The notes beneath the pieces were generated by a model that did no database searches, was not told the origin of the DNA, and was given only the letters and a program-made list of their open reading frames with translations. From Burkholderiales bacterium (GTDB lineage Bacteria; Pseudomonadota; Gammaproteobacteria; Burkholderiales; Burkholderiaceae_C): DNA of 64,000 nt. Both the position numbers and the translations under genes were made by a program. Each line of letters begins with the position of its first letter. Position 1 is the stretch's first letter. Shown here one piece after another: positions 39,215-51,640 of this stretch. The stretch covers positions 1 through 64,000 of the forward strand of contig CANJJE010000003.1 in the NCBI GenBank assembly GCA_947474755.1. Reading direction: 5' to 3'.

Positions 39215-40390
39215 ATGGCCGCCGTGGACGTTCCTGCCTACGATCTGGGACCGCTGCCGACCGTGGTGCTGATCGGCGCAATCGTGGCCATGGTGCCGCT
39301 GATCTGGGTCGTCTGGCGTCATCGGCGAAGCGACCCGGCGGTGCGCCGTCGCGCGCTGACGATGCTGACTCTGTTCCTCACCTTCGATCTGGTGCTCTTT
39401 GGCGCCTTCACCCGGCTCAGCGATTCGGGGCTGGGTTGTCCCGACTGGCCGGGCTGCTACGGCAGCGCGAGTCCGCTGGGCGCCCACGAATCCATCGGAG
39501 CGGCGCAAAGTGCGATGCCCACCGGCCCGGTGACCCACGGCAAGGCGTGGATCGAGATGCTCCATCGCTACCTCGCCACCGGGGTCGGCGCGCTGATCAC
39601 GGTGCTCGCGGTCACCGCATGGCTCGAAGCGCGCCAGAGGCGATCAACGGCAACGATGGCCGTGTCCCCATGGTGGCCGACCGTGACCTGGTTTTGGGTA
39701 TGCGGCCAGGGTGCCTTCGGTGCCTTGACGGTGACGATGAAGCTCTATCCGGCGATCGTCACCCTCCATTTGCTCGGTGGGCTGGGCCTGCTCGCACTGC
39801 TGGCTATCCAGAGCCAGCTCCATCTGCGCTCGACGCTGAACCTGTCGCCGGCGCTGAAACGCGGGGTCATCGCGGTGTTGGGGCTGGTCATCGTGCAGAC
39901 GGCGCTTGGCGGGTGGGTCAGTACCAATTACGCGGTACTCGCCTGCGCCGAGTTCCCGACCTGCCAAGGCAGCTGGTGGCCGCCCATGGACTTCGCCCAT
40001 GGTTTCACCGTGCTGCGAGAGCTCGGCGCGGGCAAGGACGGCGGTTACCTGCCCTTCGCTGCACTGACTGCGATTCACATGGTCCATCGGATCGGAGCCG
40101 CGATCCTTGTTCTGGCCATCGGCTTGCTGGTCTGGCGCCTTTGGGCCCCCGGCGACAAGGAATTGCGCCGCTGGGCGATGGCATTGACCGGCGCGACCGC
40201 CTGGCAAGTCGCCACTGGTCTGGGTAATGTGCTGTTCGACTGGCCCTTGCTGGCAGCGGTGTCGCATACAGGCGGCGCGGCCGTGATGCTGGTACTGTTT
40301 TCCATTTTGCTGACTCGCGCGTGGCCTCAGGCTGTAGCGGTCCCCACGGCGGTGTCGTCAAGTCGGCGCGGCATGAACGCAGCTTCGTAG
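39215..40390 (+). CDS. ctaA: heme A synthase (CtaA/COX15)
   Basis: [67 protein letters not shown]. Confidence 0.95.
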
Positions 40391-40410
40391 AATCATCGGC
40401 TGAGCTGAAC

Positions 40411-41322
40411 ATGTCTGAAACCCTGACCACCCCATTGCCAATCGTCCGGCCTGTCTCACGAGTCAGGCAGTTCTACATCCTGACAAAGCCGCGTGTGGTG
40501 CAGTTGATCGTTTTCTGTGCGGTCATCGGCATGCTCCTCGCAGTGCCTGGCCTGCCCGATCTGAAAGTCGCGCTGGCCACCACCGCCGGCATCTGGCTGG
40601 TCGCTGGTGCCGCTGCGGCATTCAACTGCATCGTCGAGCAGCACATCGATGCCAAGATGGCGCGCACCTCCTGGAGGCCGACCGCCAAGGGTGATCTCAC
40701 CAATGCGCAGACGCTGACCTTCTCCGCCGTGCTGTGCGGTTTGGGCAGCGCTCTGCTGTATTTCTGGGTCAACCCGCTCACGATGTGGCTGACCTTCGGC
40801 ACCTTCGTGGGTTACGCGGTCATCTACACCGTGCTGCTGAAGCCAGCCACCCCGCAGAACATCGTGATTGGAGGCGCTTCCGGTGCCATGCCGCCGGTGC
40901 TCGGCTGGGCAGCCATCCGCGGCGAGGTCGGACCCGAGGCGCTGATCCTGTGTCTGATCATCTTCCTGTGGACGCCGCCACACTTCTGGGCACTGGCCTT
41001 GTACCGCGCCGAGGATTACCGCAAGGCCGGGTTGCCAATGCTGCCGGTCACCCACGGTGCGGCCTTCACCCAGTTGCATGTCTTCCTGTACACCCTGGTG
41101 CTGTTCGCTGCGACCTTGCTTCCGTTCATCTCGGGCATGAGTGGTGTGATCTACCTGATTTCGGCGATCGCTCTGGGCGGCATCTTCATCGGCTACGCCT
41201 GGAAGCTGTGGCGCAATTACTCGGACGCACTAGCGCGCAAGACCTTCAAGTTTTCGATCTGGCACCTGATGCTGTTGTTCGCGGCGCTGCTCATCGACCA
41301 TTACATGAAACAGTGGCTATGA
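40411..41322 (+). CDS. ctaB: protoheme IX farnesyltransferase (heme O synthase)
   Basis: [64 protein letters not shown]. Confidence 0.97.
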
Positions 41323-41972
41323 GACGGGCAACGCTGGGCGGTCGTTCAATCTCGTCTCGCCGCGGCTTTCTGGAACTGGGCGGGGTGGCTCTGGCAGGCG
41401 CTGTGATGTTGCTCGCAGGTTGCGATGCGCCGTCGTCGAGCGGAGGTGCGACCACCTCGTTCAAAGGCATCGACATTACTGGCGCCGAATACGCCCGAGC
41501 CCTGTCGCTGACCGACCAGAACGGCCAACCGCGCACACTCGCCGACTTCAAGGGCAAGGTCACCGTCGTCTTCTTCGGCTTCACCCAGTGCCCCGACGTG
41601 TGCCCGATGACGATGGCCGAGCTGGCTCAGGTCAAGACGTCTCTGGGCAAGGATGGCGAGCGGGTGCAAGGCGTGTTTGTCACCGTCGATCCCGAGCGCG
41701 ACACCGCTGCGGTGCTCAAGACCTACATGAGCGGATTCGACCCCAGCTTCGTTGCGTTACACGGCAGCCCGGAAGAAATCGCCGCCACGGCCAAGGAATT
41801 CAAGGTCTTCTACGCCAAGGTGCCAGGCAAGACCGAAGGCAGCTACAGCGTGGACCACACGGCAGGCTCGTATGTGTTCGATGCGCGAGGCAAGGTACGG
41901 CTCTTCATTCGCTACGGTGGCGGCGCAGAGGCCTTGGCGGCCGATCTGAAAACGCTGCTGGCAGCCGGCTGA
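41319..41972 (+). CDS. SCO1/SenC family protein
   Basis: [26 protein letters not shown]; lipoprotein-like LAGC; ATGA overlap with ctaB; start trimmed to 41319. Confidence 0.93.
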
Positions 41973-42032: not shown

Positions 42033-42971
42033 TCAGTGCGCTGCGCCCAGCGCCTTGCGCATCTTCTTCATCGCGGCGACCTCGATCTGGCGGATACGTT
42101 CGGCGCTGACGCCGTATTCGTCCGCCAGGTCGTGCAGCGTCATGCCGCCAGAGTTGTCGTCGTTGACCTTCAGCCAGCGCTCCTCCACGATGCGGCGGCT
42201 GCGCGCGTCCAGAGTGTCCAGTGCGAGCAAGATGCCGTCGCCGGACAGCCAGTCACGGCGCTGCGCCTCCAGCACATGGCTGGGCTCCTGGGTTTCGTCG
42301 GCCAGGTACGCAATCGGGGCATAGCTTTCCTCGCCGTCGTCGGTCAGTGGCTCCAGTGGCACGTCGCCTCCGGACAGTCGGGTTTCCATCTCGAGAACGT
42401 CCTCGCGCTTGACGTTCAGGGTGCTCGCCATCGTGTCGACTTCGCCCTGGGTGAGGGTGCTGCGATGGGTCTCACCTTCGAGGGCGTCTTCCTTCAGGCT
42501 CTGCTTCATCGAGCGCAGGTTGAAGAACAGCTTGCGCTGTGCCTTGGTGGTCGCCACCTTGACCATGCGCCAGTTCTTCAGGATGTACTCGTGGATCTCC
42601 GCCTTGATCCAGTGCATCGCGTAACTGACCAGGCGCACGCCCTGGTCGGGATCGAATCGTTTGACGGCCTTCATCAGGCCGACATTGCCTTCCTGAATCA
42701 GGTCGCCGTGCGGCAGGCCGTATCCCAGATACTGGCGAGCGATCGATACCACCAGCCGCATGTGTGACAGCACCAGCTGGCCAGCGGCCTGCAGATCGCC
42801 CTGGTCGCGCAGCTTGCGCGCCAGCGACTGCTCTTCTTCAAGGCTGAGCATCGGCACGCGGTTGGCCGCAGCAATGTAGGCGTCCAGACTGCCGAGCGAC
42901 GGGATCATCGCCCAAGGGTCACGAAGCGCCAGCGCCGAAACAGAGGAATATGATGTATTCATGGTGCTCAT
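42033..42971 (-). CDS. rpoH: RNA polymerase sigma-32 factor (alternative ATG at 42962)
   Basis: AYIAAANRVPMLSLEEEQSLARKLRDQGDLQAAGQLVLSHMRLVVSIARQYLGYGLPHGDLIQEGNVGLMKAVKRFDPDQGVRLVSYAMHWIKAEIHEYIL. Confidence 0.97.
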   Translation of the reverse strand: MSTMNTSYSSVSALALRDPWAMIPSLGSLDAYIAAANRVPMLSLEEEQSLARKLRDQGDLQAAGQLVLSHMRLVVSIARQYLGYGLPHGDLIQEGNVGLMKAVKRFDPDQGVRLVSYAMHWIKAEIHEYILKNWRMVKVATTKAQRKLFFNLRSMKQSLKEDALEGETHRSTLTQGEVDTMASTLNVKREDVLEMETRLSGGDVPLEPLTDDGEESYAPIAYLADETQEPSHVLEAQRRDWLSGDGILLALDTLDARSRRIVEERWLKVNDDNSGGMTLHDLADEYGVSAERIRQIEVAAMKKMRKALGAAH

Positions 42972-43005
42972 GGATCACCTCGACTCAGGGTTGGTTCCAA
43001 GAATA

Positions 43006-43032
43006 TTAGCACTCCAGTCGCTCGAGTGCCAA
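43006..43032. promoter_or_regulatory. CIRCE-like HrcA operator upstream of rpoH
   Basis: TTAGCACTC-CAGTCGCTC-GAGTGCCAA against CIRCE consensus TTAGCACTC-N9-GAGTGCTAA: 17 of 18 arm positions match and spacer is exactly 9 nt; 34 nt upstream of the rpoH ATG at 42971. Confidence 0.88.
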
Positions 43033-43105: not shown

Positions 43106-46100
43106 TCAGTCCGGCAGCGCAATCACGAAGCAAGACTGCGGCGGCAGCACGCGCCATGCCAGCGGCTGGCCCGGTGCCAGGGTCGCGGCAGTCCCGGTCG
43201 CATGGGCGTCGAGCGCCGCCAAGGCCGACTGCCGCATCAGGATAAAGCGCATCGTGCGGGCGTCGGCGCCGCTGCCGCGGGTCAAGGTCAGCTCGGCCTG
43301 TGGCCAGTCCGCGGGCAGGCAGGGCGTGAAATGCAGCGACTCGGCGCCTTGCTGCAAGCCGAAGATCGATTCGATAGCCGCGCGATGGAGCCAGGCCGCG
43401 GCGCCCGTGTACCAGCTCCAGCCGCCGCGTCCGACGTACGGCGCCTGGGTGTACACATCACCGGCCACCACATACGGCTCGATGCCGTAGACCGCGCCCT
43501 GGGTCGGATTCGCTGCGCGGTGAGCCGGGCTCAGACAGGTGAAGTAGCGGTAGGGCAGATCGCCGGGCGCATTGAGCTTCGCCTGTGCCATCAGCGCCCA
43601 GACTCCCGCATGCGAGTACTGACCGCCGTTCTCGCGCACCCCCGGCGGATAGGCCTGGATGTAGCCGGCACTCGGCTGCGCGTGCAAGAGCGGCGGGTCC
43701 AGCAGCTTGATCAGACCCGCATCGTGGTCCACCAGATGGGCCTCCACCGATTCCATCGCCAGTTGCTGCATTGGCAATGGCGCAGCACCCGACAACACCG
43801 CCCAGGCCTGCGCAATCAGATCGATGCACGCCTCGGCATTGGCGTGCGAGCCCAGCGCGCTGCCGTCGTCGAAATAGGCGCGCTTGAACCAGCGCCCGTC
43901 CCAGGCTTCGCCGCCCAGCGCAGCCTTCCAGCCCTGCGCCGCCGTTTCCCAGTGCCCAGCGCGCTCCTCCTGGCCGCGCTCGCGGGCGAGCGGTGCGAAG
44001 TCCATGACCAGCCGCCACAGGAACCAGCCCAGCCAGACCGACTCCCCGCGACCTTCATGGCCGACGCGGTTCATGCCGTCGTTCCAGTCGCCCGTGCCCA
44101 TCAGCGGCAGGCCGTGCGCACCGACGCGCAGGCTGCGGTCGATCGCACGCGCCGCATGTTCGTAGAGCGAAGCGGTTTCGCTGCTGACGGTGGGCGCGTA
44201 GTAGGCGTCTTCAGCGCCGTCGGGGATCGCCGCGCCTTCGATGAACGGCACCTGCTCAGCCAGCAGACTGGCGTCGCCGGTCGTCTCCAGGTAACGCACG
44301 CAGGCGTGTGGCAGCCACAGCAGGTCATCGGAGAAGCGCGTGCGCACCCCGGCGCCGCCCGGCGCATGCCACCAGTGCTGGACATCGCCTTCGGCGAACT
44401 GTCGCGAGGCGGCGAGCAGGATCTGCCGGCGCAGCATGTCCGGCGCGGCCCAGGTCAGCGCCATCGCGTCTTGCAGCTGATCGCGGAAGCCGAACGCACC
44501 CCCGGCCTGGTAGAAGCCAGCCTTGGCCCACAACCTGCACGACACCGTCTGGTACAGCAGCCATCGGTTCACCATGGCGTCGAAAAGCGGGTCGGGTGTC
44601 TTCACCGTGGTCGCACCGAGCAGCGTGTCCCAGTGCTGGCGCACCGCGTCCATGCGTTCGCTTGCCGACGCTGAAGCGGCCTGGACGGCGAGCTGACGCG
44701 CGGCATCGGGGCTTTCGGCATAACCCAGCAGGAACACCCGCTCGACGGATTCGCCGGCCACCAGGGTGAGCCGCGTGGACAGCGCCGCGCAAGGGTCCAG
44801 CCCGCCACCGCAACGCTCACCGAAGTAATCGGGCAGCACCAGGCGGCCGCGTGCGTCGAAGCATTCGCGCCGGTCACAGGTCCAGTCGTCAAGGTCGTCG
44901 CTGGCACCGCTGCCGGCCAGGGCCAGAAATGCGGTTCCGCCGCCAAAGCCGGCCGATCGCTCCGGCTGCGTGCACAGCAAGGCGGTGAGTCGCGGTGCAT
45001 CACCTGCACCGGGCTGCCCCGTATCCGACGTACTGCGCACATCGGGCAGCCCTTGCCGGTGCAAGGCGGTGTGCACCGTGCCCCGGTCGGTGCGGGTCGC
45101 ACCCATCATCCATTCGGCAATGCCGACCACGCGCAGCAGCAAGGTCTCGTGCCCCCGGTTGATCAGCCGGATGCGGATCTGCTTGACTGAGCTGTGCGGG
45201 TCCACGCACCACGACACCGAAACATCGACATCGTCGCGCCGATGCCCGATCACGCTGTAGCCCTGGCCGTGGGCAACGCGGTAGCTCGCGCTGTCGCCGT
45301 CCGGCGCGTGACCCCAGGCCGATGGCGCGACGCTCCACACGTCCAGCGTTCTCAGGTCCTGCAGCAGGAACCACTCAGAGGGCGGGTCGCCCACCGGGTC
45401 GTTCGACCAGGCGGTGAGCTGGTTCATGCGGCTGTTCACCGCCCAGGTGTAGCCTCCGCCGGCTTCCGACCACTGGCAGCCGAAGTCCGGATTCGCCAGC
45501 ACATTGACCCACGGCCGCAGCGGCCGCCGCCGGGCATTGACATCGAAGCGGAATTCACCCGACGTCGGCGAGAACGCACCGACCGTCGCCGTCGACGCGA
45601 TGTCGGTGTGCGGGGACAGCGGCACCGGCACGGTCGAGGTGTCGTGCCGTCGCAGCGAGGCTTGCTCATGCAGCTCGCACCACTCCTGCACGTGGTGCGG
45701 CAAGGGTCGGCCATCGGCCTGCAGGCGCACGCGGGCGAGGCTCTGCAATGTGCTCAGCTCGTCATCTGACAGCTCCTCCGCGCGCAGCACATGAACCTCG
45801 GTACTGAGTGGGGCATGGTCCGCGACCGCACCGCCAAGCGGGTTGAATTCGGCACCGCGGTCCGCGCCGTGCCTCTCACGCAGGGCTATCAACTCGCGCT
45901 GCAACACCATGAGGTACGAGGTCGGCTCGGCATTCACCACCACCAGATCGCAGGCGACGCCTCCCCATGACCACAGGCGCATCGCCTGCGCCAGCGAGCG
46001 GATCAGGCCCAGACCTTCGGGCGCCCCGGCCTTGACCAGCAGGATCGGCCGGTCCCCCGAGATGCCGAATCGCCACAGCAGCCGGCGATCGCACACCGCT

Positions 46101-49100
46101 GGCGTCGCGCCGAGAGCTCCCGCAGCCAGCGTACGCGGCCGCGCCACGGTCAGCAGCAACGCCGTGGTCAATGACTGGATGGCGGCGAGCTGCTCCTGGC
46201 TGATGCGCAGGCTGCGAAAGCGGACGCTGGCCAGCGTGGCCGACATCAGCGAGGCGCGCTTGACATTGCTCGCCTGGCGGTACTTGTCGATCACCGCGCT
46301 CAGCGTGCCGCCGTTGTCGCAGGCGGCCGTGGCGAACGTCAGCTGCGCCTTGCCCTGCGGTGCGATGCGCAGGCGTACCGACATCGCACAGACCGGGTCG
46401 AGACCGGTGTCCAGCGACTCGGCACCGTCGCGTTGTGCGCTGGACAGCAATGCGCCGTCGAATGAAGCCAGCGGCTGGCTCGCGCTGCGGTTGCGGCCGA
46501 GCCAGCGCTGGCGGTCGGTCTGAACCTCCACGGACACCAGCTGCGGGTCGCTTTCGGCCAGGAAATGGGCCGCGAGCACGCCCCGTTCGGTGAGCAGTCG
46601 TGGCGTACGCTCGAAGCGCAGCGCCTGGTGCTCGGCCAACCACGTGGCGCGCACGAACAGGTTGCTGAAGGCCGGGTGGGCCTCGTCGGCCCGTGGATCG
46701 GCGAGCGTCACCTCGAAGGCCGAGATGAGCTCGATGTCGAGTTCATGATCCCCGAGGTTTCGCAGCTCGATCTGACGGAATTCGATGTCGTCCTCCGGAC
46801 TGACCCACACCGTCGTGTGTGCCTGCACCGTCGGCCACTCCGCATCGAAGCAGACACGGTCGGCGTGGAAGACGCTGCGGTAATGCGCAGCGGAGTCAGC
46901 TGCCGGGTGCTGTGTGATGGACACGACCGGTGCGACGATGCCCGACGGGCGCGGGGCGGCCTGGCTGTCGTCGCGCTGCCAGCGCAGGTAGAAGAAGGAG
47001 CCATGCGCATCGCGCAAGGCGTCGTCGCGACTGCGCGTGATGCTCGTCTGGCCCCAGCGGCTGCTTCCCGCGCCATTGGCGCGCAGGCTGACGCTGTAGC
47101 GGCCGTTCGACAGCACATGGGTCGGCTCCAGCGCGGCTGCACCCGGCAACACCTCGCGCAGCAGACCCGGCGCACGGCGCAGCACGCTCTGCGGTGGCGG
47201 GCCCGGCGGGAGCGCATACAGCATCGACACCTCGCGCGGTGCGCGCTCGTGCAGCAGCGATCCCACCGCCTCGATGTGTGGATTGGCCATGCCCCAGCGC
47301 TGCGCCACACTGTCCAGCAGCACATTGGCCAGCGCCACGATCGTCATGCCCTGGTGATGTGCCATGAAGGTCATCACCGGCGTGAACGCCTCGTCGCTGT
47401 TCTGCCTTGACGCAGTGAAGTCCAGCGCCTCGATGAAACCATAGGGCTCGCGCGGCGCCAGCGCTTCGATCGCCGCGAAGTTCAGCCTTGCCAGGTGGGG
47501 GGCGATCTGGCTGGCGAGCGCGGTGGCGTAGGGTGCGATCACCAGCTCATCGGGCGACGTGCGGCGCAGCGCGAGTCGTGGCACGCCTTGCGGCGCGTAC
47601 TGGTAGGCCAGGGTGAAGTCACGTCCGGCGTAAGCCGATTCCGAAATGCCCCAGGGCACGCTGCCGCCATGAACGAGCCGCGCCTTTGCGAACGCGATCT
47701 GCTCGCGCACTGCCGCGTGGCAGGCTTCCCGCAGCACACTGCCGTAGGGCTCCTCGAGCACCAGCGTCGGCATCAGGTACTCGAACATCGATCCTGACCA
47801 CGAGCGCAGGCCGGCGTCTGCACCGACCGCATAGAACATGCGGCCGAGCGAGGCCCAATGCTGCACCGGCACATCGCCCTTGGCGATCGCCAGCAGGCTG
47901 GTCAGCCGCGATTCGGACGCGAGCAAGTCATAGAAACCTGCATCGAGCTGCTGCTCTGCGACCCGCAAGCCGATGTGGAACAGATGTCGCTTGCGGTGAT
48001 ACAGGAAGCTGAAGTCGGCCTCCCACGCGAACTGCTCGCAGCAGTCGGCCACAGCCTGCAGGCGGTCTGTGATGGCGCTGTCCTGCGACCAGGACGCCTG
48101 CCCCCGGCAGGCCTGCGCCACCGCCAGCAGGTGACCGCTGAGGTTGCCGCTGTCCACCGTCGACACATACATCGGCAGCAGAGGTGCCAGCGTCTGTGTG
48201 TCGTACCAGTTCAGGAAATGCCCTCGATGGCGCTGCATCCGCCCGAGCGTGGCAAGCGTGGCTTCCATGCGAGCCAGCAGCTGGAGCGTGTCGATCCAGC
48301 CGAATTGCCGTGCACAGGCTGTGCTCAGCAGGTACAGGCCGATGTTGGTCGGTGAGGTGCGATGCGCCACCATGTCCATCGGCGCCGTCTGCAGGTTGTC
48401 GGGTGGCAGGTGGTTCTCTTCGGCCACCACGCAGCGCTCGAAAAAGCGCCAGGCATCGCGCGCGACACCTTCGAAGTAGGCGCGGTCGACCTCGTTCAGT
48501 ACCAGCTCCGAATCGGCGAAACATGGTCGGCTGACCCACCAGGTCCAAAGCGGCGACGCGGCCCACAACAGGCTCAGCGTCGTCGCCAGCCAGGGCGTCG
48601 GCGTGCCGACGGCGAACAGCGCGGCCAGCAGCACCAGGGCCAGCAGGGGCTCGTGCCCATGCTGCCGACACAGCGCTGGCAGCGTCGTCTGCGCGCGCGC
48701 CTGTGCAGCGGCAGCGGTGGTCCACTGAAGCAGATGACGTTGGCTGAAGGTCATGCGGTAAACCGCACGCACGATTGCATCCGTCATCAGCAGTGCCTGA
48801 GCCGCCAGCTGCGCCAGCAGCCACGCGCCGCACCACAGCGTGCGTCCCAGATCGCCGGCGGCCAGGCGGTAGAAGTGGCGCAGCGCGATATCGTCGCGGC
48901 TCGGCGAAAAGCCGGCCACCGCACCCATCAGCGGACCGGCGGAAATGGCCGCCACCACCATGACCAGCGCGACCCAGGGCGACACCACGCCGGTGCCCAG
49001 TGCCAGCAGCAGCAGGGCCAGCGACATGGGCGCGACCAGGGAGCGGCGAAGGTTGTCGAACATTTTCCAGCGGTTGATGCCCCGCAAGCGCCAGCGGTCG

Positions 49101-51640
49101 GGATGCCGCAGCGAATCGAGCAGGAAAGGCATCAGCTGCCAGTCACCGCGTGTCCAGCGATGCACGCGGGACGCGGCCACATCGGCGTGGAACGGCGCAT
49201 CCTCGATCAGCGTGATGTCGGTCACCGCCGCGCAGCGCGCAATCGACCCTTCCAGCAGATCGTGGCTGAGCACACGGCCTTCAGGCAGGCGACCGGACAG
49301 CACGGCATGCATCGCGTGCACATGCAGCAGACCCTTGCCGGTGAACGTGCCTTCTCCGAACACATCCTGGTACACCTCGGAGGTGGCGGCGCTGTACGGG
49401 TCGATGCCGCATTGGCCAGCAAACAAGCGGTGGTAGAGCGTGAAGTCCTTCGGTGACGGCAGGGGCGTGACGATGCGCGGCTGCAGGATCGCGTAGCCGC
49501 TGGTCACCAGGCGTCGGCTGGCATCGATCTGCGGCTGGTTCTGCGGGTGTGCGGCAACACCGACCAGGTCGTGCAGCCGCCCCGGTGGCAGTTGGGTGTC
49601 GCTGTCGAGGGTGACGATGTACCGGGTGTCGGCCGCGATGCGCGACGATGTGCCGAGGTCGATGAACGGGTACGCCGTGCCTGCATCGCTGCATGCCGAT
49701 GCGTCGGCGAGCACGGTGATCAGCTGTTCGAGCTTGCCCCGCTTGCGCTCCCAGCCGATCCATCGCTGCTCGGTCTCGCTGTAGCGGCGTTCGCGGTGCA
49801 GCACGATGAAGCGCGGCGGCGCGGGCAGCGTGGCCGTCAGCTCGTCGAGCCCGGGCGAGAAGCAGGTCGGGTAGCGCGCATTCAGCGCTTCGATCTGTTG
49901 CCTTGCATCGTCCAGCAGGCCGGCGTCGGACGGGATCCTGGCGCTGTCGGCATCGGCCCAGTCGGTCAGCAGCGCAAACTGCGCGTGGCGCTCGGGGTTG
50001 GCGAGATGATGCAATTGCAGCCGGTGGACCAAGGCGTGGGTCGAGGCGGCATCGGTCAGCATGGCCGGGATCACCACCATCACCCGATGCTCGGGGGGAA
50101 TGCCGGTGGCCAGCGCCAGCCGTGGCAGATGCGCCGGACGTGCCGACTCGCTGATCAGCCGGTTGATCACCGCCACCACGGCTTCAGACGCCGGGAACAG
50201 CATCAGCATGCCGGCCAGCCAGGTCCAGCCCCAGTCGACTGGGGCATCGCCCAGTCCCGCCATGTGTCTCAGCAGCACCCACGCGACGAGACCGACCGCC
50301 ACCGCCAGCAGCGAGCCAAGGTACAAGGGCAAGGCGACCTGGTGGGCCACGGCTCGCCAGATCGCGGCACCGCGCTCGGGCAGGCCGAGCGCGCTCACCA
50401 GGGCGGGACGACCAGGGCCTGTCAGCCAGTAGCCCGCGACGGCCGTCGGGCGTTCGGTCAGCGAGCCCTCGGGGGCGGGAGTGCCCGGCTCCTGCATCAG
50501 ACCCAGCAAGGTGCGACCGACCGCGACTTCACTCAACCTGCTCCGCCTGGCCAGCCGCTCGATGCCGTGCATGGTCAGATCGCGCGTCATCGGGTGTTCG
50601 GACTCGAACACCGGTGAGGTCAGCATCAGGCGCATCAGCGTGCTGCTGCGAGCCACGATGTCGGGCCAATCGGCGTCGCCGATCGCACGCAGCGACGACA
50701 CCGCATTGCTGACGCTCAGGTTGTCAGCTGTCTTTTCGGCGTGCTGCTGCGCCTGCATCAGCGCCGGATCGGGAAGCGCACGCCGCAACCACTCGTGCTG
50801 CTCGGCGCGATCGTCAGGCCGGTCACTCGCGCGCTTGTGAACCAGCAGCTCGGCACCGGCGCCGATACCGGCCGCGTGACCACGCCCGTCCTGCATGCGC
50901 TGCGACATCTGTCCCAGGAACACCCGGCCGACGCCACGGCGGTTGAGCATGGCCAGCAGTTGATCGAGCGTATCGGCGGTCATGCTGTCGATGCGATCGC
51001 AGCACAGGTTGGCGACCTCGCGCGCGGCCTTGTTGTTGGCCACGCGTTCGGCCAGCCGGCGCAGGTTTTCGATCAGGACCACGCGCAAGGTGGTCGGCAA
51101 CGCCCACATCTCCCCGAGGTTCAGTTCACGGGCTTCCTGGTACGCGCTCAGGAAATGGATCAGCAGCGCTTCATCGAAGTCGCCATCAGTGTGCGCAACG
51201 AAGGCCCAGGCCACGCCGTAGATCCGGGGCAGACCCGCCAGCGGCTCATCGATCAGTACCGGCAGCGCACGGAAGTAGCGACGCGGCAGGCCTTCATGGA
51301 TCTCTTCGAGCTGCGCCTCGATCAGGTGAAAGTTGTCGAGCAGCCATTCCGCAGCTGGGCTGATGTCGTAACCCGTGCTGGCCTGCACGCCGATATAGCG
51401 ATGCGCCGCGCGCAGGGTCTGGATGTTGTTTCGCAGCCGGGGAAAGAAGCTCGCCCTGAATGAGCGAGATCGTTGCGCGCGGTGCGTTTCACCGAGGCTG
51501 CGCCCGTGCTGTGCGAAGCGCTGCAGGCCGAAGATTTCGGAACGTATCGGGGGCTCGATCGCCCCCTGCGTATGGCTGAGGATGTCGCATAGCGCCTGCG
51601 GCGGGTCCGGGATCAGGCGCAGCAGCTCGGCTGGCGACAT
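43106..51640 (-). CDS. cyclic beta-1,2-glucan synthase (NdvB/ChvB type)
   Basis: 2844-aa ORF. GT region IVTLDSDTQLPPGRLHDLVG; central glucoamylase-type region; C-terminal GH94 signature GLPLMGTGDWNDGMNRVGHEGRGESVWLGWFL; internal TM clusters. Confidence 0.93.
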   Translation of the reverse strand: MSPAELLRLIPDPPQALCDILSHTQGAIEPPIRSEIFGLQRFAQHGRSLGETHRAQRSRSFRASFFPRLRNNIQTLRAAHRYIGVQASTGYDISPAAEWLLDNFHLIEAQLEEIHEGLPRRYFRALPVLIDEPLAGLPRIYGVAWAFVAHTDGDFDEALLIHFLSAYQEARELNLGEMWALPTTLRVVLIENLRRLAERVANNKAAREVANLCCDRIDSMTADTLDQLLAMLNRRGVGRVFLGQMSQRMQDGRGHAAGIGAGAELLVHKRASDRPDDRAEQHEWLRRALPDPALMQAQQHAEKTADNLSVSNAVSSLRAIGDADWPDIVARSSTLMRLMLTSPVFESEHPMTRDLTMHGIERLARRSRLSEVAVGRTLLGLMQEPGTPAPEGSLTERPTAVAGYWLTGPGRPALVSALGLPERGAAIWRAVAHQVALPLYLGSLLAVAVGLVAWVLLRHMAGLGDAPVDWGWTWLAGMLMLFPASEAVVAVINRLISESARPAHLPRLALATGIPPEHRVMVVIPAMLTDAASTHALVHRLQLHHLANPERHAQFALLTDWADADSARIPSDAGLLDDARQQIEALNARYPTCFSPGLDELTATLPAPPRFIVLHRERRYSETEQRWIGWERKRGKLEQLITVLADASACSDAGTAYPFIDLGTSSRIAADTRYIVTLDSDTQLPPGRLHDLVGVAAHPQNQPQIDASRRLVTSGYAILQPRIVTPLPSPKDFTLYHRLFAGQCGIDPYSAATSEVYQDVFGEGTFTGKGLLHVHAMHAVLSGRLPEGRVLSHDLLEGSIARCAAVTDITLIEDAPFHADVAASRVHRWTRGDWQLMPFLLDSLRHPDRWRLRGINRWKMFDNLRRSLVAPMSLALLLLALGTGVVSPWVALVMVVAAISAGPLMGAVAGFSPSRDDIALRHFYRLAAGDLGRTLWCGAWLLAQLAAQALLMTDAIVRAVYRMTFSQRHLLQWTTAAAAQARAQTTLPALCRQHGHEPLLALVLLAALFAVGTPTPWLATTLSLLWAASPLWTWWVSRPCFADSELVLNEVDRAYFEGVARDAWRFFERCVVAEENHLPPDNLQTAPMDMVAHRTSPTNIGLYLLSTACARQFGWIDTLQLLARMEATLATLGRMQRHRGHFLNWYDTQTLAPLLPMYVSTVDSGNLSGHLLAVAQACRGQASWSQDSAITDRLQAVADCCEQFAWEADFSFLYHRKRHLFHIGLRVAEQQLDAGFYDLLASESRLTSLLAIAKGDVPVQHWASLGRMFYAVGADAGLRSWSGSMFEYLMPTLVLEEPYGSVLREACHAAVREQIAFAKARLVHGGSVPWGISESAYAGRDFTLAYQYAPQGVPRLALRRTSPDELVIAPYATALASQIAPHLARLNFAAIEALAPREPYGFIEALDFTASRQNSDEAFTPVMTFMAHHQGMTIVALANVLLDSVAQRWGMANPHIEAVGSLLHERAPREVSMLYALPPGPPPQSVLRRAPGLLREVLPGAAALEPTHVLSNGRYSVSLRANGAGSSRWGQTSITRSRDDALRDAHGSFFYLRWQRDDSQAAPRPSGIVAPVVSITQHPAADSAAHYRSVFHADRVCFDAEWPTVQAHTTVWVSPEDDIEFRQIELRNLGDHELDIELISAFEVTLADPRADEAHPAFSNLFVRATWLAEHQALRFERTPRLLTERGVLAAHFLAESDPQLVSVEVQTDRQRWLGRNRSASQPLASFDGALLSSAQRDGAESLDTGLDPVCAMSVRLRIAPQGKAQLTFATAACDNGGTLSAVIDKYRQASNVKRASLMSATLASVRFRSLRISQEQLAAIQSLTTALLLTVARPRTLAAGALGATPAVCDRRLLWRFGISGDRPILLVKAGAPEGLGLIRSLAQAMRLWSWGGVACDLVVVNAEPTSYLMVLQRELIALRERHGADRGAEFNPLGGAVADHAPLSTEVHVLRAEELSDDELSTLQSLARVRLQADGRPLPHHVQEWCELHEQASLRRHDTSTVPVPLSPHTDIASTATVGAFSPTSGEFRFDVNARRRPLRPWVNVLANPDFGCQWSEAGGGYTWAVNSRMNQLTAWSNDPVGDPPSEWFLLQDLRTLDVWSVAPSAWGHAPDGDSASYRVAHGQGYSVIGHRRDDVDVSVSWCVDPHSSVKQIRIRLINRGHETLLLRVVGIAEWMMGATRTDRGTVHTALHRQGLPDVRSTSDTGQPGAGDAPRLTALLCTQPERSAGFGGGTAFLALAGSGASDDLDDWTCDRRECFDARGRLVLPDYFGERCGGGLDPCAALSTRLTLVAGESVERVFLLGYAESPDAARQLAVQAASASASERMDAVRQHWDTLLGATTVKTPDPLFDAMVNRWLLYQTVSCRLWAKAGFYQAGGAFGFRDQLQDAMALTWAAPDMLRRQILLAASRQFAEGDVQHWWHAPGGAGVRTRFSDDLLWLPHACVRYLETTGDASLLAEQVPFIEGAAIPDGAEDAYYAPTVSSETASLYEHAARAIDRSLRVGAHGLPLMGTGDWNDGMNRVGHEGRGESVWLGWFLWRLVMDFAPLARERGQEERAGHWETAAQGWKAALGGEAWDGRWFKRAYFDDGSALGSHANAEACIDLIAQAWAVLSGAAPLPMQQLAMESVEAHLVDHDAGLIKLLDPPLLHAQPSAGYIQAYPPGVRENGGQYSHAGVWALMAQAKLNAPGDLPYRYFTCLSPAHRAANPTQGAVYGIEPYVVAGDVYTQAPYVGRGGWSWYTGAAAWLHRAAIESIFGLQQGAESLHFTPCLPADWPQAELTLTRGSGADARTMRFILMRQSALAALDAHATGTAATLAPGQPLAWRVLPPQSCFVIALPD

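Follow-up and report, generated by a model that had tools for sequence, protein, structure and literature searches.

The window, a 64,000-nt stretch of a Burkholderiales genome, carries on its minus strand the rpoH gene for sigma-32 (42033..42971), which encodes 312 aa when read from the ATG at 42971. The gene was identified with the curated equivalog model TIGR02392 (388.9 bits against a cut-off of 323.1), and the encoded protein contains the motif QRKLFFNLR, which we take to be the RpoH box. The ATG common to the whole genus is that at 42962, three codons inside the annotated one, and three loci (L242, L243, and L245) do not possess the first ATG; homology thus favours 42962, which is probably the true start. 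Upstream and on the same strand is a gene encoding a GH94-type glycoside phosphorylase or cyclic-glucan synthase-like protein of 2844 aa (43106..51640) with GH94 catalytic, supersandwich, and glucoamylase-like domains; it lies outside the switch described below, and readthrough from it into rpoH is possible. On the plus strand, cytochrome oxidase assembly genes (39215-41972) converge towards rpoH, with heme O synthase assigned by model and the heme A synthase-like and SCO1-like genes by eye.

The CIRCE operator and HrcA

Between rpoH and its upstream neighbour lies a palindrome (43006..43032, no strand assigned) of the form TTAGCACTC-N9-GAGTGCCAA, in full TTAGCACTC-CAGTCGCTC-GAGTGCCAA, which corresponds to the CIRCE consensus TTAGCACTC-N9-GAGTGCTAA with one mismatch per 18 arm positions and a spacer of exactly 9 nt. 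On the minus strand, the region ahead of rpoH reads ...gtcgaaa TTGGCACTC GAGCGACTG GAGTGCTAA tattcttggaacc..., and the site is separated by exactly 34 nt from the annotated ATG at 42971, a gap that may amount to 43 nt because the ATG at 42962 is the genus-wide start. The original prediction of a CIRCE in front of rpoH, with 17 of 18 arm positions matched, was confirmed, as 100 dinucleotide shuffles of the window yielded no match with up to three mismatches. At the same threshold, the whole genome (3.06 Mb) contained exactly two sites, at rpoH and at groES. The gene behind the upstream end of the palindrome runs in the direction of rpoH, with 73 nt between its end and the site; therefore, the operator cannot serve a divergent gene, and such a target was ruled out.

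The prediction depended on the presence of HrcA in the genome, and the hrcA gene was indeed found, in one copy (PF01628, E = 3.6e-68), its product carrying a winged-helix DNA-binding domain (PF03444) besides the C-terminal PF01628 domain. This gene adjoins an oppositely oriented ORF read by eye as NAD kinase. The genome-wide search revealed no CIRCE at hrcA itself, and since the only two sites of the genome stand at rpoH and groES, the predicted direct regulon of HrcA consists of rpoH and groESL. At groES, CIRCE is located downstream of a sigma32/sigma70-like promoter, CTTGAA-N14-CCCTATAAT. Among the relatives, genome G023 has two groES copies (L278 and L279) with a CIRCE at each, one of them with three mismatches, and genome G016 has a third CIRCE-core match with five mismatches and with neither groES nor rpoH adjacent, which is probably due to chance.

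Conservation of the site and its co-occurrence with HrcA

Eighty rpoH loci were found in named Burkholderiales, and 79 of them could be tested, one contig ending too soon. CIRCE was present within two mismatches at all 79, typically 16-78 nt and once 129 nt from the aligned start, and within the window's own genus and family all 18 rpoH loci, from 17 genomes, retained it with at most one mismatch. In the alignment of 77 sites, the 18 arm positions contained 1.56-2.00 bits each and the nine spacer positions 0.02-0.56 bits, and 72 distinct spacers were counted among 80 sites. The near-invariant arms and variable spacer indicate that selection acts on the operator and not on the region at large. 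One locus (L173, genome G077) bears a CIRCE half-site, gagtgctaaaat, directly before the full CIRCE upstream of rpoH, which suggests a duplicated operator.

The relation to HrcA was evaluated using one genome per family at the order and class levels, 98 genomes together. Both HrcA and CIRCE at rpoH were found in 71 genomes and neither in 21, with three in each of the two discordant classes (agreement in 92/98, Fisher p = 3e-15); in the same order of both, discordant, and neither, the counts were 42/0/0/5 in the order sample and 29/3/3/16 in the class sample. The discordant class members comprised three HrcA-positive genomes without CIRCE at rpoH and three HrcA-negative genomes keeping it, the latter with genome completeness of 62%, 81%, and 97%. 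The most complete of these (G083, loci L204 and L340) has no detectable HrcA and keeps a CIRCE with one mismatch at rpoH, so that HrcA was either lost recently or overlooked. Another HrcA-positive genome, G050, was rejected as a discordant case, as the apparent absence was set by the alignment start of tblastn and a CIRCE with one mismatch is present at its rpoH (L137). About 15 changes in HrcA presence fall on the RpoH protein tree; in five independent pairs on well-supported branches, CIRCE follows HrcA in 4.7 on average and hardly ever the opposite occurs, and for these five changes the sign test gives p of about 0.06 at best. The operator is accordingly both conserved under selection and lost with HrcA. 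In the phylum sample, 15 genomes from outside the class, presumably those of alphaproteobacteria, carry HrcA but have no CIRCE at rpoH; thus, the HrcA-rpoH wiring is lineage-specific and does not arise automatically wherever both regulators are present. The conservation that the original prediction named as a check was strongly borne out, by the 79 Burkholderiales loci as well as by co-occurrence with HrcA, and its description of a cross-wired circuit is fair with respect to the wiring, although the arrangement is lineage-wide and not a quirk of one genome.

Predicted promoters within the palindrome

Promoters were assigned by consensus match and conservation, and start sites were predicted. 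A single sigma70-like promoter was found between 41.9 and 43.3 kb, on the rpoH strand: TTGGCA-18-TAATAT, in which TG precedes the -10 element (9/12 consensus positions; one found versus a shuffle mean of 0.1), and CIRCE overlaps it. The predicted -35 element TTGGCA (43027..43032, minus strand) is the 5' end of one CIRCE arm, while the predicted extended -10 element TGCTAATAT (43003..43011, minus strand; TG at 43010-43011, hexamer at 43003-43008) is half CIRCE arm and half a conserved one-sided NAT, its hexamer consisting of the end of the other arm plus TAT. The sole CIRCE mismatch (A to G) converts TTAGCA to TTGGCA, raising the match to TTGACA from 4/6 to 5/6. Of the bases following CIRCE in Burkholderiales, the second is A in 76 of 77 loci and the third T in all 77, and the mirrored bases on the other side showed no conservation in the 77 sites; such one-sidedness is expected from a -10 element and not from a symmetric operator alone. 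Across the families, the commonest -10 form is TGCTAAAAT, with 5/6 in the hexamer. The arms of CIRCE themselves thus appear to form the rpoH promoter, a point absent from the original prediction, and transcription is predicted to start near 42996. At groES in the genus, the promoter is located just upstream, CIRCE lies at about the start site, and the flank behind it usually reads C(A/G)A or C(A/G)G. Given these different layouts, HrcA should keep polymerase from binding at rpoH, and at groES it should occupy the start point.

The coincidence of the arms with the -35 and extended -10 hexamers could also mean that the palindrome is conserved only as a promoter, or as a device for promoter spacing, on which HrcA does not act. 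This is quite improbable: the 9+9 symmetry reaches beyond the hexamers, the length of the 9-nt spacer is fixed, the site vanishes with HrcA (71/3/3/21), and groES bears the same palindrome with its promoter placed differently. Some CIRCE hairpins of Gram-positive bacteria affect groE mRNA stability, and the present repeat, being able to form a hairpin, might act in mRNA as a stability element or RNA thermometer, or else terminate the upstream gene. Such a role seems quite improbable, as the predicted start near 42996 leaves the repeat outside the rpoH transcript and no terminator-like site was found upstream. An RNA thermometer or hairpin in the rpoH leader itself was rejected, the leader and early coding RNA folding no better than shuffles (z = -0.70). 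It is least credible of all, to the point of being nearly negligible, that the site is fortuitous or decayed and functionless: the single arm mismatch might be taken as a sign of this, but it improves the -35 element, no shuffle of the window reproduced the site, and all 18 rpoH loci sampled in the genus and family keep it. What these data very probably reflect is a working HrcA operator inside the main promoter of rpoH, through which HrcA gates the gene, with the load on GroE as the likely signal.

An extension of this explanation, and not an opposing one, which the original prediction likewise did not contain, is probable for many HrcA-carrying beta- and gammaproteobacteria, in which the CIRCE of rpoH overlaps a putative sigma-E promoter, GGAACTT-N16-TCnnA, so that HrcA would gate both envelope-stress and housekeeping input. 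A -35 element of the GGAACTT type belongs to the sigma-E consensus (PMC4890791, PMC8103513). Among 74 family representatives, GAAC was found at -15/-16 upstream of CIRCE in 43 and GGAAC in 31 (5.3 in shuffles), and the full pattern scored at least 11/12 in 17 (0.0 expected) and at least 10/12 in 34 (0.4 expected). The corresponding -10 element has the last TC of the CIRCE arm as its first two bases and an A in the spacer as its final one; this A tracks GAAC (39/43 loci with GAAC versus 12/31 without it, p = 2e-6). Comamonadaceae use a second register, with both elements displaced together by 4 nt: GAAC stands at -11 and TCnnA lies within the spacer at a distance of exactly 16 nt in 35 of 37 loci, versus 1 of 37 loci without GAAC (p = 3e-17), or 27/29 versus 1/37 when distinct spacers are counted. 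Apart from a sigma-E promoter, little would readily account for two registers with a common spacing of 16 nt. Class-wide, 62 of 229 genomes contained the composite pattern, each in a single copy, and it never occurred in the reversed control; all 30 copies checked were upstream of rpoH, in 29 cases by no more than 300 nt, and the two positions behind GAAC, on which no selection was made, were T in 42/62 and T in 36/62.

The genome under study encodes rpoE followed by an rseA-like gene. Its own rpoH region does not carry the composite. No GAAC precedes CIRCE in the window, and the best GGAACTT-N16-TCnnA match upstream of rpoH was 8/12. Just after CIRCE lies GGAACC (42993..42998, minus strand), kept in most of the genus, a candidate weak or decayed sigma-E -35-like element for which no promoter is claimed, because its -10 is a poor match and the distance between the two deviates by 1 nt. 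The rest of the genus scored 7-9 of 12, mostly without upstream GAAC, and the genus is probably derived, having lost the upstream sigma-E element. No sigma-E autopromoter of the strict pattern was found near rpoE in this genome, and among 24 genomes without CIRCE a strict pattern for the sigma-E promoter was seen in only two. In six loci from related genera (L008, L010, L013, L015, L022, and L052), CIRCE is followed after 7-8 nt by GGAAC; TCnnA comes exactly 16 nt later, and a further 5-7 nt lead to the rpoH ATG, possibly a sigma-E promoter from which rpoH would be transcribed as a leaderless mRNA. The composite promoters are predictions from sequence, and the related genomes counted in their favour are not independent of one another. 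The chances are about even that the ancestral rpoH region of HrcA-carrying beta- and gammaproteobacteria was one compact element, with sigma-E and sigma70 extended -10 promoters passing through a single CIRCE and an HrcA-GroE veto over envelope-stress and housekeeping input to sigma-32; lineages without HrcA would have lost the operator, and in some Sphaerotilaceae-like genomes the sigma-E promoter may have shifted to a downstream position, from which rpoH would start as a leaderless mRNA.

Proposed circuit and comparison with known systems

From the site and its neighbours, the HrcA protein, conservation, co-occurrence, and promoter geometry, we infer HrcA binding, repression, the GroE titration signal, and the dynamics of the circuit as follows. 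HrcA bound to CIRCE would cover the -35 element (TTGGCA) and the extended -10 element (TGCTAATAT) and shut out sigma70 RNA polymerase, keeping sigma-32 scarce in unstressed cells. HrcA activity would require GroE, and heat or misfolded protein occupying GroE would release HrcA from the operator; alternatively, heat may unfold HrcA itself. In Campylobacter, HrcA no longer binds DNA once heated, and GroE stimulates it (PMC8533110), and a GroE titration model is cited for B. subtilis in the same paper. Upon release, rpoH and groESL, the only two predicted targets here, would rise together, sigma-32 would add groESL transcription from the CTTGAA/CCCTAT promoter, and the new GroE would re-arm HrcA, closing the loop.

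CIRCE before rpoH is already known as a kind, since for Geobacter sulfurreducens a consensus CIRCE at position -51 relative to the start of rpoH was listed in 2004, together with the prediction that HrcA regulates sigma-32 there (Rodionov et al. 2004, PMC545781). The likeness includes groESL as a further HrcA target; however, Geobacter is one deltaproteobacterium among those studied there, its case is a prediction only, and neither promoter overlap nor a sigma-E composite nor wide conservation was reported (PMC545781). Among the papers covered by the full-text search for HrcA with rpoH, this was the sole direct precedent, and none was found that describes the breadth, the operator-in-promoter layout, or the sigma-E/CIRCE composite. 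The work of Permina and Gelfand (2003) reportedly deals with the HrcA/CIRCE regulons of beta-, gamma-, and epsilonproteobacteria, that is, with the right lineages and both regulons, and may already contain the betaproteobacterial CIRCE-rpoH link. The system is made of known parts in a new arrangement, and no priority is claimed for the bare link.

In alphaproteobacteria such as Agrobacterium, HrcA and RpoH are both present and groE is under both, according to work cited in PMC11764788, whereas in the 15 presumably alphaproteobacterial genomes without CIRCE at rpoH the two systems appear to act in parallel and not in series. The relatives with the composite resemble E. coli, where sigma-E drives rpoH from P3 with a GGAACTT-type -35 element (PMC8103513, PMC4890791), but E. 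coli has no HrcA, none being found in the control genome, while in the relatives the predicted sigma-E -10 lies inside the HrcA operator. If true, this overlap would place a further gate between envelope stress and cytoplasmic stress.

Heat-shock control is commonly presented as the work of sigma-32 (E. coli), of HrcA/CIRCE (B. subtilis), or of both in parallel. In the circuit proposed here, the repressor would stand upstream of the activator, with a feedback loop through GroE, which predicts a testable hierarchy and may help to explain the reliance of E. coli, which lacks HrcA, on translational and stability control of sigma-32. Thus, in most of the sampled HrcA-carrying beta- and gammaproteobacterial families, one of the two classical heat-shock switches appears to be governed by the second.
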